Shown: positions 228-6,877 of the stretch, one piece after another
Numbering within the stretch: the first letter of the stretch is position 1
Layout of the letters: every line of letters begins with the position of its first letter
Assembly: GCF_000233695.2 (NCBI RefSeq)
Contig: NZ_CM001488.1
Span: forward strand, 924,792-988,791
Direction of reading: 5' to 3'
Source of the DNA: Desulfobacter postgatei 2ac9
Lineage (GTDB): Bacteria; Desulfobacterota; Desulfobacteria; Desulfobacterales; Desulfobacteraceae
DNA length: 64,000 nucleotides
Notes under the pieces: generated by a model
Told to the model about the DNA's origin: nothing
What the model saw: only the letters and a program-made list of their open reading frames with translations
Databases searched by the model: none
Translations under genes and position numbers: made by a program

Positions 228-2549
228 ATGAAAACAAAACCCGGCCCGGATCAGGCCAAACATGACATATTGGGTCAAACAGCCCGGATTCCGGCGGATA
301 TGATGTGGTTGTTCACATTTTCCAGTCTATGCCGGCGGGCCATGCTACATACCGCTGATGCCTCCGGACTCCTGGATGAAATTGTGAGTGCGGTGGAAAG
401 CCATACGCCTTATTATACGGTTTGTTTCAAATCTGTTTTCTATCCTGAATCCGGTCTGGAGAGCGGTGACAATTGTACACCCCATAGCGGTATAGACGAT
501 TTATCCCCTTTTCACAGGAGGTGTGTAAACCCAAAAATAAAAAGCCTTAAAAGAGTCACGGATACTGATTTTCCCAAATCCGTGCAAAAACGCCTTGGCA
601 TGAAAAGCGGGACCCTGGCCACGGCGTTGTACTTTCCCATAAATGACCCTTGTGAAAAAGGGGGCCGGTGTCAGGTTTTTTATGCCCCCAGCGGATATGT
701 GCCGCACCCCCTGGAATTTTTGGTTTTAGAAGAGCTTTCGGCAGACCTTGGCAAAACCCTGGACCGGATGCACAGGAACCGGGGCGTTGAAGAACAGATC
801 CTGGAACTGACCCGCCAAAAAGAGATGTACCACAGCGTTTTTGAAAACACGGGAACCGGAACCATCATCATTGATCCGGATATGATGATTCTTCATGTGA
901 ATGCCAAATTTATGGCCCTGGTGGGACTTGAGCGAAATGAAATCGAGAACCGGATGAGGTGGTCCCAGTTCGTGGTGCCCGGCGACAATGAAATGATGCA
1001 AAATTACCATTACGGTCGACGAAAGGGCCTTTCCGGCATTCCCACCGAGTACGAATGCCGGATTTTTGCCACCTCCGGGGATATTCGGTATATCGATATG
1101 AAGGTGGGCATGATTCCCGGAACCGGCAGAAGCATTGCGTCGTTTATGGATATTACAAAAAGAAAACTTGCCGAGAACCGCCTGCGGCAAAGTGAGGCCC
1201 AGCTCAGTGATATCATTCGTACCTTTGAGGGATTGATTTATATTACATCAAAAGATTACAGGGTTGAGTTCATGAATGTCACGCTGCAGGAAAAAGCCGG
1301 TCGAAGCGGGGTGGGTGAAAAATGCTACAGGCTGATTCACGGCCTGGACTCCCCCTGTGTCGGGTGTCGGCTTGAGTCTGTTCTTTCAGGCGAGACCCGC
1401 AGATGGGAGTTGAAAAGTCCCAGGGACGGCCGATGGTACTGGTCTATCCAGTCTCCGGTTTATGACAACCGGGGGCGGATTGTCAAAGCCCAGACCATCC
1501 ATCTGGACATCACCGACAGAAAGCGCCGGGAAGAGCAGATCAGCGAAGATGCGGATCTGCTCAGAAATGAGAACATCGTTCTTCGATCCGCCATGAAAGA
1601 GCGGTACCGGTTCGAAAACATCGTGGGAAAGAGTCCGGCCATGCAGAAGGTGTATGAGCTTGTGGTACGGGCGGCCGCAAGCAACGCGCCTGTTATCATC
1701 TATGGCGAATCCGGAACCGGGAAAGAGCTGGTGGCCCGGGCGATTCACAATTTGAGCAAGCGCAGTAAAAAACAGTTTGTGCCCGTCAACAGCGGTGCCA
1801 TCAGTGAACATATTATAGAAAGTGAATTTTTCGGCTACCGCAAGGGGGCATTCACCGGCGCTGAAAAGGACAAGGAGGGGTTTCTTGGGACGGCTGACGG
1901 CGGCACCCTGTTTTTGGATGAAATCGGAGATGTCGGACCCAATCTTCAAGTGAAATTGCTCCGGGCCATTGAAGGCGGGGGATACACCCCTGTGGGCAGT
2001 ACCCGGGTGATTAAACCCGACCTCAGGATCGTGGCCGCCACCAACAAGAACCTCAAACACCTGGTGGAAAAAGGCGTGATGCGGGAGGATTTTTTCTACC
2101 GGGTACACATCATCCCGATCCGGCTGCCTGCCCTGCGGGAACGCAAGGAGGATATTCCATTGCTGGTGGACTACTTTTTATCCGCCTTTGGTGATCAGGG
2201 GCAGATTCTCCCCATGGGAGGCAAAATTATGGAGGCCTTTTTCCTGCACGACTGGCCCGGAAATGTCCGGGAACTTCAGAACGTCCTTCACCGTTACATG
2301 ACCCTGGGGAAAATTGATTTCATGGAGACTTCGTCTGATTGTGGGGCAGACGCCCAGGAACAGGTCGGTTTTGTCCGGGAATCCCATGATCTTTGCGGGT
2401 CTTTGAATGAGATTGTGGCGGACTTTGAAAAGGGGATTATCCTGAACGCCCTGGAGGAGAACCGCTGGCAAAAGGCCAGGACGGCACTTGCACTGGGAAT
2501 TCACAGAAAGACCCTGTTTACCAAGATGAAAAAACTTGGATTGGAATAG
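228..2549 (+). CDS. PAS-domain sigma-54-dependent transcriptional activator
   Basis: Bacterial enhancer-binding protein expected to bind upstream sites and remodel RNA polymerase-sigma-54. Residues 1-190 are a sensory region I cannot name. Two PAS domains follow (about 200-315 and 326-434), then an AAA+ domain with Walker A GESGTGKE at 493-500, the sigma-54-contacting GAFTGA loop at 540-545, Walker B LDE at 563-565 and arginine-rich sensor segments. The C-terminus has a Fis-type helix-turn-helix (about 748-770). There is no response-regulator receiver domain, so the signal is probably a ligand or redox state sensed by the N-terminal half. The second PAS carries a Cys cluster (C366, C377, C380) that could bind a metal or respond to redox. 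Its place just upstream of acyl-CoA oxidation genes, with a sigma-54-type promoter between them, suggests it controls that cassette. Confidence 0.93.
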   Translation: MKTKPGPDQAKHDILGQTARIPADMMWLFTFSSLCRRAMLHTADASGLLDEIVSAVESHTPYYTVCFKSVFYPESGLESGDNCTPHSGIDDLSPFHRRCVNPKIKSLKRVTDTDFPKSVQKRLGMKSGTLATALYFPINDPCEKGGRCQVFYAPSGYVPHPLEFLVLEELSADLGKTLDRMHRNRGVEEQILELTRQKEMYHSVFENTGTGTIIIDPDMMILHVNAKFMALVGLERNEIENRMRWSQFVVPGDNEMMQNYHYGRRKGLSGIPTEYECRIFATSGDIRYIDMKVGMIPGTGRSIASFMDITKRKLAENRLRQSEAQLSDIIRTFEGLIYITSKDYRVEFMNVTLQEKAGRSGVGEKCYRLIHGLDSPCVGCRLESVLSGETRRWELKSPRDGRWYWSIQSPVYDNRGRIVKAQTIHLDITDRKRREEQISEDADLLRNENIVLRSAMKERYRFENIVGKSPAMQKVYELVVRAAASNAPVIIYGESGTGKELVARAIHNLSKRSKKQFVPVNSGAISEHIIESEFFGYRKGAFTGAEKDKEGFLGTADGGTLFLDEIGDVGPNLQVKLLRAIEGGGYTPVGSTRVIKPDLRIVAATNKNLKHLVEKGVMREDFFYRVHIIPIRLPALRERKEDIPLLVDYFLSAFGDQGQILPMGGKIMEAFFLHDWPGNVRELQNVLHRYMTLGKIDFMETSSDCGADAQEQVGFVRESHDLCGSLNEIVADFEKGIILNALEENRWQKARTALALGIHRKTLFTKMKKLGLE

Positions 2550-2554
2550 CCTCA

Positions 2555-2578
2555 AAACGTGGCTGTATAGCCACGTTT
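2555..2578. promoter_or_regulatory. Palindrome 1, candidate activator-binding site
   Basis: Perfect inverted repeat with arms AAACGTGGCT (2555-2564) and AGCCACGTTT (2569-2578) around GTAT. It lies 6 bases after the regulator's stop codon, so it could be a terminator hairpin, but there is no T-run of the usual kind. The same CGTGGC/GCCACG half-sites recur in a second palindrome whose centre is 80 bases downstream, which favours a protein-binding site. Terminator and binding-site roles are not exclusive. Confidence 0.55.
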
Positions 2579-2637
2579 ATGTAATGCTTTGAAATTTAAA
2601 CAAAATTGGTTATGCTTACATCTGTGATCTTAATTTT

Positions 2638-2655
2638 CGTGGCGTTATCGCCACG
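2638..2655. promoter_or_regulatory. Palindrome 2, candidate activator-binding site
   Basis: Inverted repeat CGTGGCG (2638-2644), TTAT, CGCCACG (2649-2655). It shares the half-site and overall length of the palindrome at 2555-2578. Its centre is about 105 bases upstream of the candidate sigma-54 promoter, a normal distance for an enhancer site of a Fis-type activator. Confidence 0.6.
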
Positions 2656-2743
2656 TATGTCCGTCTGCCTGCTCGCCTGCCAACTATTCAAAAATAGATA
2701 AATACCATTTTAAATCAATTGATTGCCAAATAGTGTGGCGGGC

Positions 2744-2759
2744 TGGTCTGGTTTTTGCT
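2744..2759 (+). promoter_or_regulatory. Candidate sigma-54 (-24/-12) promoter of the acyl-CoA oxidation operon
   Basis: The sequence TGG (2744-2746) is followed by TTGCT (2755-2759), with exactly 10 bases between the GG and GC dinucleotides, the invariant spacing of sigma-54 promoters. The CAC after the GG is replaced by TCT, so the -24 element is imperfect. It lies about 120 bases upstream of the acyl-CoA dehydrogenase start. The 330-base gap 2550-2879 holds only this element and the two palindromes. Confidence 0.6.
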
Positions 2760-2879
2760 GGCCATATCCAAGGCTTTTAGAACAGTCGTTCAGTTTTTTT
2801 GAAGGACCCATGGGTGTGAAAAACTAGTACGCCTGTCACCGCCTGTAACCTTAAACGCTTTGATAGAGGAAAAAGTCTT

Positions 2880-4682
2880 ATGGCACAATTGATTGCAGAT
2901 CGACGGGATGTGGATTTCGTATTACACGAACAACTGGATGTGGACAAATTAAGCAAGGATGAACGCTTTGCCGAGTTCGGGAAAAAGACCGTTGATTTAA
3001 TCGTAAGCGAAGCCAGAAATCTTGCAATTAAAGAGATCCTGCCCCTTCAAACGATAAGTGACGAAGGCTGCACTTTCAATGCCGGTGAAGTAAAAGTACC
3101 CGATGCCTTTCACAGTGTATATGCCGCGTATAATGAAGGTGAGTGGCTGGGAATGACCGATGATCCCGAATGGGGCGGGCAGGGGATGCCACATACCGTT
3201 GCCATGGCAGCCAATGAATATTTTTACGGAGCTTGTAATTCCTTTATGCTTTACAATATGCTCACCCATGGGGCAGCCAAGCTTGTGGAGAAGTTCGGCA
3301 CGGATGATCAAAAGCGGATTTATCTTAAAAATATGCTCTCCGGGAAATGGTCCGGCACCATGCTTTTGACCGAACCGAACGCGGGCTCCGACCTTGCGGC
3401 TGTGGAGGCTACGGCCAAACCAAACGGGGACGGCACCTATTCTCTGTTCGGCAACAAGATTTTCATTTCCGCCGGAGAGCACGATATGGTGGAAAATATC
3501 ATCCATCCGGTTCTGGCCAGGATCGAAGGCGCGCCCGAGGGCATTGCCGGTATTTCCCTGTTCCTGGCACCCAAATTCAGGGTGAATGCTGATGGCAGCC
3601 CGGGGGAATTCAACGATGTGGTGTGTACAGGCATTGAGCACAAAATGGGTCTGCACGGCAATGCGACCTGCTCCTTGACCCTGGGGGGCAAATCAGGGTG
3701 TATCGGCACCCTTTTGGGGCAGGAAAATAAAGGCGTGGCCGCGATGTTCGAGATGATGAACGAAGCCCGCCAGATGGTGGGGCTCCAGGGTTTTGCCAAC
3801 GCGTCGGCCTCATATATGTATGCCCTGAACTATGCCAGGGAACGGATTCAGTCCCGGGAACTCAAAGCCCCGGCCACTTCAAAATCAGTGCCCATCATCC
3901 GTCATCCTGATGTGAAACGCCAGCTGATTACCATGAAGGCCTATGTGGAAGGGTTGCGCAGCCTCAACTACTTTTGCGCCATGTGTCATGACCTGGTTGC
4001 CGTATCCACGGATGAGGAGCACAAAACCCATTATGAATATCTACTGGAGGTCCTGACGCCTATTGTTAAAGGATATGGTACGGACAAGTCCTTTGATGTA
4101 TGCAACCAGGGAATTCAGATTTACGGCGGTTACGGTTTTATTGAGGAGTTCCCCGTGGCCCAGCTGCTCAGGGATTCCAGAATTTTCATGCTGTACGAGG
4201 GAACCAACGGCATCCAGTCCATTGATCTTTTAGGACGCAAACTCTCCATGAAAAAGGGGGCAGCTTTCAACGCCCTACTGGTTGAAATCAAGAAAACCAT
4301 TGCCGATGCCAAAGCAGTCGACGGTCTTGAGGATCTCACGGCCCGGCTGGAAGGGTTTTTCAGTACCTACACCGAGGTGGCTGCGGCACTGCAGGTCAAG
4401 TCCAGGTCGGATGAATTTTTGACTGCGTATGCCTTTTCATACCCCTTCATGGAGGTTACAGGGGACCTTGCCATGGCCTGGATGCTTTTGTGGCGGGCCG
4501 CAACTGCCACAGCCAACAAGGGCAAAAAGAAAAAAGACAACATCTTCTACGACGGACAGATCAAGACTGCCCGCTTTTTTATCAACCAGATCCTCGCGGC
4601 CACCGCTGGAAAAATGGAGGCGCTTAAAGCGTGTGACAATGCTGTGGTTGAGATGGATGAGGCTGCCTTTGGAAGCAAGTAG
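2880..4682 (+). CDS. Acyl-CoA dehydrogenase (600-residue, C-terminally extended type)
   Basis: FAD enzyme that oxidises an acyl-CoA to the trans-2-enoyl-CoA, first step of beta-oxidation. It shows the acyl-CoA dehydrogenase N-terminal, middle and C-terminal domains: WGGQGMP near residue 100, the LLTEPNAGSD flavin/substrate segment near 163, and YEGTNGIQ, which places the catalytic base at E440. The extra C-terminal domain of about 150 residues places it in the 600-residue group that includes FadE-like and methylmercaptopropionyl-CoA-type enzymes, rather than the 380-residue short-chain group. A GAGGA ribosome-binding site precedes the start. Thiolase follows after 27 bases. Chain-length preference cannot be read from the sequence. 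Confidence 0.93.
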   Translation: MAQLIADRRDVDFVLHEQLDVDKLSKDERFAEFGKKTVDLIVSEARNLAIKEILPLQTISDEGCTFNAGEVKVPDAFHSVYAAYNEGEWLGMTDDPEWGGQGMPHTVAMAANEYFYGACNSFMLYNMLTHGAAKLVEKFGTDDQKRIYLKNMLSGKWSGTMLLTEPNAGSDLAAVEATAKPNGDGTYSLFGNKIFISAGEHDMVENIIHPVLARIEGAPEGIAGISLFLAPKFRVNADGSPGEFNDVVCTGIEHKMGLHGNATCSLTLGGKSGCIGTLLGQENKGVAAMFEMMNEARQMVGLQGFANASASYMYALNYARERIQSRELKAPATSKSVPIIRHPDVKRQLITMKAYVEGLRSLNYFCAMCHDLVAVSTDEEHKTHYEYLLEVLTPIVKGYGTDKSFDVCNQGIQIYGGYGFIEEFPVAQLLRDSRIFMLYEGTNGIQSIDLLGRKLSMKKGAAFNALLVEIKKTIADAKAVDGLEDLTARLEGFFSTYTEVAAALQVKSRSDEFLTAYAFSYPFMEVTGDLAMAWMLLWRAATATANKGKKKKDNIFYDGQIKTARFFINQILAATAGKMEALKACDNAVVEMDEAAFGSK

Positions 4683-4709: not shown

Positions 4710-6005
4710 ATGAAAGATGTAGTGATTGTCAGCGGCGCCCGAACTGCCATCGGCAGTTTTGGCGGGGTGTTGAAAACTGTTTCATCAGTGGACCTGGGCG
4801 CCGTCGTTATCCGTGCCGCCCTGGAAAGGGCAGGGCTTCGGCCCGAGGTCAGTGATGAGATGATGGCCTTTGCACCGGACAAACTAAGAGACCGGGGCAT
4901 GACCGATCTGGAAAAAGGTTACGCAAACTGGAACACCGATGCCACGCCCATTGCTGTCGACGAGGTGATCATGGGAAATGTGCTGCAGGCAGGACAGGGG
5001 CAAAGCCCCGGCAGGCAGGCCATGATCCGGGCGGGTGTGCCCAAGGAGACCTATGGCTTTACGGTGAATAAAATCTGCGGGTCAGGGCTGAAGTCCATTG
5101 CCATTGGCGCTTCATCCATCATGAGCGGGCAGGCCGAAGTGGTGATTGCCGGCGGCCAGGAGAGTATGAGTAACGCGCCCATGGCCATGACGAGTGCCCG
5201 ATGGGGATACCGCATGGAGGTATCCGGAAAAGGGGAGATCTATGACCTGATGGTGTATGACGGTCTCTTTGAAATTTTTAACGGGTACCATATGGGCGTG
5301 ACAGCTGAGAATATTGCCGAACTTTACAATATTTCCCGGCATGACCAGGACAAGCTCTCCTGCCTCAGCCACGCAAGGGCCCGGGCTGCCATTGCAAACG
5401 GCACGTTCAAAGAGGAGATCGTGCCGGTGATCACCCGTACCCGCAGGGCCGAGGTGATTGTCGACACGGATGAGCGGCCCATGGAAACCTCCATGGAAAA
5501 GATGGCCAAGATGAAACCGGTGTTCAAAAAGGATGGGTCTGTTACGGCGGGCAATGCATCGGGCATCAACGATGGTGGTGCCGCCGTGGTGATGATGAGC
5601 GCTGACAAGGCCAAAGAACTTGGGCTAACGCCCTATGTTAAGATCAAAGGGTTTGCCACAGGCGGTGTGGATCCCGCATATATGGGGCTGGGGCCGATTC
5701 CCGCGGTGCGCCGGGTGTTGAAATCCACGGGCATGTCCATAAGTGACATGGAGATCATTGAGTTGAACGAAGCCTTTGCGGCCCAGGCTCTCGGGTGCAT
5801 GATAGAGTTGAATATTGATCCTGAATTTGCCAATCAGCTGGGCAGCGGCATCTCCCTGGGCCACCCCATCGGTTGCACCGGGGCCCGGCAGATGGTTACC
5901 CTGATCCATGAAATGAAGCGTAAAGGATACGGCACAGGACTTGTGTCCATGTGTATTGGCGGGGGGATGGGGATGGCCATGATCGTGGAAAATATGACTA
6001 AATAA
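4710..6005 (+). CDS. Acetyl-CoA acetyltransferase (thiolase)
   Basis: Cleaves 3-ketoacyl-CoA with CoA to acetyl-CoA and a shortened acyl-CoA, or runs in reverse. The active-site set is complete: nucleophile C123 in NKICGSG, NEAFA, H385 in GHPIGCTG and C415 in CIGGGMG. At 431 residues it is about 35-40 longer than the usual bacterial thiolase. The excess is one insertion at roughly residues 47-81, between the RAGLRP segment and DEVIMGNV. A strong GGAGAGG ribosome-binding site precedes the start. It lies in one operon with the acyl-CoA dehydrogenase before it and the hydroxyacyl-CoA dehydrogenase after it. Confidence 0.95.
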   Translation: MKDVVIVSGARTAIGSFGGVLKTVSSVDLGAVVIRAALERAGLRPEVSDEMMAFAPDKLRDRGMTDLEKGYANWNTDATPIAVDEVIMGNVLQAGQGQSPGRQAMIRAGVPKETYGFTVNKICGSGLKSIAIGASSIMSGQAEVVIAGGQESMSNAPMAMTSARWGYRMEVSGKGEIYDLMVYDGLFEIFNGYHMGVTAENIAELYNISRHDQDKLSCLSHARARAAIANGTFKEEIVPVITRTRRAEVIVDTDERPMETSMEKMAKMKPVFKKDGSVTAGNASGINDGGAAVVMMSADKAKELGLTPYVKIKGFATGGVDPAYMGLGPIPAVRRVLKSTGMSISDMEIIELNEAFAAQALGCMIELNIDPEFANQLGSGISLGHPIGCTGARQMVTLIHEMKRKGYGTGLVSMCIGGGMGMAMIVENMTK

Positions 6006-6034
6006 CAAGTGATTTGATGAAAGCTCATAAGTAT

Positions 6035-6877
6035 ATGAAAAAAATATGTGTAATCGGTGCCGGCACCATGGGGGCCGGAATCGCCCAGGTCTTTGCCGTT
6101 AACGGCTATATGGTGGTGTTGCGGGATATTGAACAAGAATTTGTTAACAAGGGCATTTCGATCATCTCGAAAAATTTGAGCCGCCTGGCATCCAAGGGCA
6201 AATTGGAGGAGGTTATGATCCAGCCGATTCTCTCCCGGATTATCGGCACCACAGATCCTGAAAATGCGCAGGATTGCGATCTTGTGGTGGAAGCTGCCGT
6301 GGAAAATATGAAGATCAAGAAACAGATTTTCAGTGAACTTGACAATATCTGCAAACCTTCAACCATCCTGGCCACCAACACCTCTTCCCTTTCTATTGCC
6401 GAGGTGGCCACGGCCACAAAACGTCCGGATAGAGTGATCGGCATGCACTTTTTCAATCCGGCACCTGTCATGGCGCTAATAGAGATCATCAAAGGGGTTG
6501 CCACGTCTGACGAGACCTTTAACGCTGTAAAGGCATTGGCCCTGGATCTTGGCAAACAGCCGGTACAGGTAGATGAAGCACCTGGGTTTGTGGTGAACCG
6601 AATATTGATTCCAATGATCAACGAAGCCGCCGCCATCTATGCCGAAGGCGTTGCCAGTGCCGAAGATATTGATACGGCCATGAAACTGGGTGCCAATCAT
6701 CCCATAGGCCCCCTTGCCCTGGGAGACCTGGTTGGATTGGACGTCTGTCTGGCGATCATGGATGTTCTTTATGAAGAGTTCAAAGATTCTAAGTACAGGG
6801 CTACTCCACTGCTGCGAAAGTATGTTCGTGCGGGCCGGCTCGGTCGCAAAAGCGGCAAAGGATTTTTTAATTATTAA
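6035..6877 (+). CDS. 3-hydroxyacyl-CoA (3-hydroxybutyryl-CoA) dehydrogenase
   Basis: NAD(P)-dependent oxidation of 3-hydroxyacyl-CoA to 3-ketoacyl-CoA, just before the thiolase step. The protein opens with the Rossmann motif GAGTMGAG, continues with HFFNPAPVM around the catalytic His and ends with the NHPIGPLALGDLVGLD dimerisation segment. At about 280 residues it is the monofunctional HBDH type, not fused to an enoyl-CoA hydratase. The ATG at 6035 gives the usual family N-terminus; upstream TTG and ATG codons at 6014 and 6017 would add a few atypical residues. No hydratase gene sits in this operon; the crotonase-fold gene at 9222 lacks the expected catalytic residues. Confidence 0.94.
   Translation: MKKICVIGAGTMGAGIAQVFAVNGYMVVLRDIEQEFVNKGISIISKNLSRLASKGKLEEVMIQPILSRIIGTTDPENAQDCDLVVEAAVENMKIKKQIFSELDNICKPSTILATNTSSLSIAEVATATKRPDRVIGMHFFNPAPVMALIEIIKGVATSDETFNAVKALALDLGKQPVQVDEAPGFVVNRILIPMINEAAAIYAEGVASAEDIDTAMKLGANHPIGPLALGDLVGLDVCLAIMDVLYEEFKDSKYRATPLLRKYVRAGRLGRKSGKGFFNY

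Follow-up and report, generated by a model that had tools for sequence, protein, structure and literature searches.

The window is the whole 64,000-nucleotide stretch of the Desulfobacter postgatei 2ac9 genome that was analysed. Near its start, the gene of a predicted one-component regulator is followed by a 330-bp intergenic region and then by genes for an acyl-CoA dehydrogenase, a thiolase and a 3-hydroxybutyryl-CoA dehydrogenase (Table 1). The intergenic region contains two palindromes, a likely IHF site, a sigma-54 promoter and a conserved leader element.

Table 1. Features of the regulator-operon locus, in window coordinates
Feature	Position	Strand	Basis or remarks
One-component sigma-54 activator (predicted)	228..2549	+	PAS, PAS, AAA+ with GAFTGA, Fis-type HTH; helix GIHRKTLFTKM
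Predicted upstream activator site 1	2555..2578	.	motif unique exact in genome; conserved in 9/9 readable Desulfobacter loci
Predicted upstream activator site 2	2638..2655	.	as site 1; site 1-site 2 spacing 79-81 bp in genus, 70-73 bp outside
Likely IHF site, AATCAATTGATTG (exact WATCAANNNNTTR)	2713..2725	+	exact consensus match
Sigma-54 promoter, TGGTCTGGTTTTTGCT	2744..2759	+	-24 GG 2745-2746, -12 GC 2757-2758; predicted start near 2770
Leader element, GAACAGTCGTTCAG	2780..2793	+	conserved in place, with small changes, in 9 aligned Desulfobacter loci and G012
Acyl-CoA dehydrogenase, first gene of operon here	2880..4682	+	Pfam Acyl-CoA_dh domains
Acetyl-CoA C-acyltransferase (thiolase)	4710..6005	+	Pfam Thiolase_N, Thiolase_C; TIGR01930 over cut-off
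3-Hydroxybutyryl-CoA dehydrogenase	6014..6877	+	Pfam 3HCDH domains; NF004474 over cut-off

The regulator is predicted to be an enhancer-binding protein by its AAA+ domain (PF00158, 211.9 bits, E 6.3e-63) and by the GAFTGA loop in its translation. Its C-terminal Fis-type HTH matches PF02954 (HTH_8, E 3.2e-11, residues 730-770), its PAS domains match Pfam PAS_4 and PAS_3, and residues 1-195 have no Pfam match. The second PAS domain (residues ~336-433) holds a Cys-rich stretch, GEKCYRLIHGLDSPCVGCRL, that might serve in metal binding or redox sensing. There are about 35 sigma-54 activators encoded in the genome, and one rpoN gene for sigma-54 itself (PF04552, one match, E 1.7e-61).

Palindrome 1 reads AAACGTGGCT-GTAT-AGCCACGTTT, with perfect arms of 10 bp each, and palindrome 2 reads CGTGGCG-TTAT-CGCCACG; their centres lie exactly 80 bp apart. 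The shared motif CGTGGC-N6-GCCACG occurs twice in the 3,974,658-bp genome (a single contig), both times in this intergenic region. When the 330-bp region was simulated 200,000 times under a Markov-1 model, at least one GTGGC-N6-GCCAC appeared in 0.0175% of trials and two appeared in none (0/200,000). With centres at about -203 (site 1) and -123 (site 2) relative to the predicted transcript start, the inverted repeats are placed as upstream activator sites are, roughly 100-200 bp upstream, where variation in the distance to the promoter is tolerated.

The promoter sequence TGGTCTGGTTTTTGCT has the form GG-N10-GC and is near the -24/-12 consensus TGGCACG-N4-TTGCW, with 3 departures from TGGCACG. 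The -24 GG of this promoter is 98-99 bp away from the palindrome 2 centre. Across the nine Desulfobacter loci TGGT and TTG are invariant, and the last C is changed in G009 and G008; distant loci have near-consensus promoters of the TGGCAC type. The first-pass annotation had described the two palindromes with their 80-base distance, a GG-N10-GC promoter downstream and a sigma-54 activator with a Fis-type domain upstream. The coordinates and the distance are correct, the promoter sequence is as described and is kept in all nine loci, and the domains of the activator were recovered.

Between the palindromes and the promoter, positions 2713-2725 are likely an IHF site, judging by consensus. The consensus recurs at the equal offset as an exact match in G003, G006, G009 and G044, and with one mismatch in G004 and G016; there are 6 exact matches on both strands of the 64-kb window. 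Downstream, a run of T follows GAACAGTCGTTCAG just past the predicted transcript start. We considered the leader element as the mark of a repressor regulon and rejected this, as the four other copies of GAACANNCGTTCAG examined all lie inside coding genes.

The scan of orthologous loci proposed in the first-pass annotation was carried out, and the pair is conserved throughout the genus wherever the locus can be read. All nine Desulfobacter species with a readable locus (the window genome, G003, G004, G005, G006, G008, G009, G015 and G016) have two GTGGC-N6-GCCAC palindromes with at most one base altered; G004 and G008 each have one arm base changed in one site. The palindromes begin a few bases past the regulator stop codon, they are 79-81 bp apart, and a sigma-54-type promoter follows 88-90 bp past the second. 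The DNA between the conserved elements has diverged: in the nine-locus alignment, the arms keep 18 of 20 columns unchanged, versus 29 of 136 in the spacer (Fisher p = 3e-9). A tenth species, G012, only appears to have lost the sites, as a run of N covers this part of its scaffold. The pair is absent from the seven Desulfobacter genomes that have no close regulator orthologue (G002, G007, G010, G013, G014, G017 and G018).

A wider regulon in the window genome was rejected. No third exact copy of the motif was found there, and sites with up to two mismatches were not above background (85, versus 146 for a reversed-pattern control). The remaining exact matches across the genus, taken by themselves, revealed no evident common second locus. 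By this genome-wide count, the motif marks only one operon in the window genome.

Across the order, a relaxed pattern for the pair matched in 23 of 389 genomes; 17 of them have the pair next to the regulator, a CoA-transferase or both, and the other 6 matches are repeats or unrelated. The pair reaches other genera and families, usually ahead of a gene resembling butyryl-CoA:acetate CoA-transferase; in G049 the gene that follows is not a fatty-acid gene. Because the loci of G031, G044 and G049 were found by the regulator search first, the motif was not selected for in them, while GTGG/CCAC formed part of the search for the remaining loci of the order. A search of 395 genomes of the phylum returned the pair in the window genome and three unrelated matches only. 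The two sites sit closer together in genomes outside Desulfobacter: their spacing there, 70-73 bp, is less by about one helical turn. All of the compared pair loci have a sigma-54 promoter, and the gap from the second site to it ranges over 77-112 bp. Site spacing is thus tight and the distance to the promoter loose, the pattern that an enhancer should show. A helical-phase reading of the two spacing classes is suggestive only, because the spacing difference may be a single evolutionary change.

It could be argued that one palindrome is functional and the other a chance or relic copy, since three further pair loci (G033, G025 and G052) have one or two altered bases in one site. The retention of both sites and of their spacing across nine Desulfobacter species and at distant loci makes this very improbable.

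A second possibility is that palindrome 1 is the terminator of the regulator gene and that palindrome 2 is a hairpin, unrelated to it, in the RNA of that intergenic region. Palindrome 1 does start only a few bases past the regulator stop codon, both palindromes fold well as RNA (-16.3 and -12.5 kcal/mol), and a run of T follows the first one in G016. However, a scan of 2300-3000 found no terminator-like site, the RNA stems are weak in G044, and neither identical arms at both sites nor a fixed spacing is needed for termination. In G020, G033 and G025 the pair comes first, followed by the genes for CoA-transferase and acyl-CoA dehydrogenase, in two of them also 3-hydroxybutyryl-CoA dehydrogenase, and finally the regulator. 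The regulator gene is thus at the opposite end of the operon and yet the pair is at the promoter, so the pair tracks the target promoter rather than the regulator 3′ end. We consider the terminator and hairpin reading extremely improbable, and the scan, the loci with a downstream regulator and the weak G044 stems rule it out as the main explanation. The concern in the first-pass annotation that the first palindrome might be merely a terminator is likewise answered, although palindrome 1 could have a double role in some species, as the run of T in G016 illustrates.

The pair would be bound by the regulator encoded beside it. We infer this from the co-occurrence of the pair with one clade of regulators and from one correlated change of helix and site. 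All 21 of the compared pair-bearing regulators have HRKTLF in the HTH, preceded by I, V or L. INRKTLF, IGRKTLY, IDRKTLF or other sequences are found instead in neighbouring regulators that lack the pair. The correlated change is a single swapped case, G055, whose regulator has the helix IHRKTLFEKI (IHRKTLFEKIKK) and was the one IHRKTLF protein that at first appeared to have no sites. There, GTAAC-N6-GTTAC occurs twice, 72 bp apart (L159, G055:C3:7904-7991), with TGGCACAGATCCTGCA 90 bp after the pair and thiolase genes adjoining it. Paired GTAAC-N6-GTTAC was found in 1 of the 389 genomes, namely G055.

A different protein, either a repressor or another sigma-54 activator, might instead bind the palindromes while the adjacent regulator acts elsewhere. 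The genome has many candidate activators, and in G379 the pair lies on a 4-kb contig that has no regulator. Against this stand the co-occurrence of the pair with the regulator clade and its recognition helix, the relative in which helix and site changed together, and the joint absence of pair and close orthologue from seven Desulfobacter genomes. The positions of the sites, so far upstream of the predicted start, fit an enhancer better than a repressor operator. Binding by another protein therefore has little probability.

On sequence evidence, then, the palindromes are very probably the paired enhancer sites of the adjacent PAS-type activator and would drive the acyl-CoA dehydrogenase/thiolase/hydroxybutyryl-CoA dehydrogenase operon via sigma-54. 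Fis-type HTH dimers of the regulator would bind each GTGGC-N6-GCCAC site, and two dimers held at a fixed distance would aid assembly of the AAA+ oligomer. The oligomer would reach sigma-54 polymerase at 2744-2759 through DNA looping, to which an IHF bend at 2713-2725 possibly contributes. Once its PAS-containing N-terminal region senses a signal, the regulator would in this way open the promoter of the operon, with transcription starting near 2770. The proposal of the first-pass annotation that this is a self-contained regulatory unit of an acyl-CoA oxidation operon is largely supported by the architecture and by its conservation in orthologous loci.

The target operon appears to have changed while its control region was kept. 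The acyl-CoA dehydrogenase is 92-96% identical to those of other Desulfobacter. At most pair loci the first gene is a CoA-transferase near butyryl-CoA:acetate CoA-transferase, which scores 564 bits on TIGR03948, under the cut-off of 675. In the window genome, G003, G006 and G009, no CoA-transferase was found at the operon start and acyl-CoA dehydrogenase comes first. Elsewhere in the window genome, the best CoA-transferase homologue has 35% identity. In G008 (L118:4929-5215) only about the first 51 CoA-transferase residues are left ahead of acyl-CoA dehydrogenase, an apparent intermediate toward the window arrangement, in which the CoA-transferase is gone (2793-2880). Read most simply, the regulatory unit outlived its first target gene, the CoA-transferase. 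The other end of the operon also differs between loci. MBL-fold and TauE-like genes follow it directly in the window, and in several Desulfobacter species (L113, L114, L115 and L119) a cluster that looks hydrogenase-like by eye (MGKRIIVDPITRIEGHL...) comes after 3-hydroxybutyryl-CoA dehydrogenase and separates the operon from them.

Several known systems resemble this one. In E. coli, the response regulator AtoC controls atoDAEB through one 40-bp inverted palindrome of two 20-bp sites (PMC3118216). The window system would work like this one, in which a sigma-54 activator acts from a palindrome upstream of CoA-transferase and thiolase genes for the breakdown of short-chain fatty acids (PMC3118216). 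Unlike AtoC, the window regulator carries PAS domains and lacks a receiver domain, and its two predicted sites are distinct palindromes of 16-18 bp, set 80 bp apart, with another motif. It is not AtoC, because Pfam finds no receiver domain, the motif is different, and its score of 296.9 bits on the AtoC model (NCBIfam PRK11361) is far under the cut-off of 714. In Clostridiales, CrbR, AhcR and XcgR have TGT...ACA sites with a 10-12 bp spacer, in a pathway assigned to butyrate and butanol synthesis (PMC6615313). They share with the window system sigma-54 promoters with upstream sites and butyryl-CoA pathway genes, but the half-sites here are GTGGC..GCCAC rather than TGT..ACA (PMC6615313).

The one-component PAS/GAF sigma-54 activators of Desulfovibrio vulgaris have local regulons, and their sites were found by comparative genomics (PMC4641369). 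As in those cases, the regulator gene here lies beside its own sigma-54 promoter, the regulon is small, the HTH is of the Fis type and the site comes from comparative genomics (PMC4641369). This likeness, one of layout, regulon size, HTH type and approach, is to a study of Desulfovibrionales with a text that names neither Desulfobacter nor fatty acids (PMC4641369). The window system is one more case of this established class, in which a one-component sigma-54 activator serves a local regulon. Desulfobacterales have very large numbers of sigma-54 activators (PMC12316311), and a literature search for papers naming this regulon found none.

Pairs with other half-sites occur beside more distant regulators. 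They were found at 2 of 18 loci, versus 0.01 expected from shuffles. L044 has GGGA..TCCC (TGGGA..TCCCA) palindromes 69 bp apart, just past the stop near 5827, and a near-consensus sigma-54 promoter, TGGCACAACCCTTGCT; the gene after this pair resembles, by eye, an acetate-type membrane transporter. L050 has CGGGT..CCCG with a spacing of 72 bp, and no clear promoter was found at that locus. An exact palindrome pair was present at only 1 of 30 other activator loci of the window genome, so the arrangement is not universal. At L171:924-1015 of that genome, next to the gene of another sigma-54 activator, two identical GTTCAAAATTTTGAAC palindromes are spaced by 76 bp, and this pair has no clear promoter match.

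We tentatively suggest, as a possibility that may well prove wrong, that a rigid enhancer code of two sites governs this activator family, with spacing classes of 70-73 and 79-81 bp and with half-sites exchanged through minor changes to the recognition helix. In such a code HRKTLF followed by T, R or L would go with GTGGC and HRKTLFE with GTAAC, and the distant regulators would use GGGA (69 bp) and CGGGT (72 bp). If true, DNA recognition by Fis-type activators could be read as a code, and the way in which dimers nucleate the hexamer would follow a geometric rule.

For the oxidation of short-chain fatty acids in Desulfobacterales, the locus yields a regulator, a motif, a promoter and an operon that can be tested. 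Its natural variants, two spacing classes and a swapped half-site with a matching helix change, make the rules of Fis-type DNA recognition directly testable.
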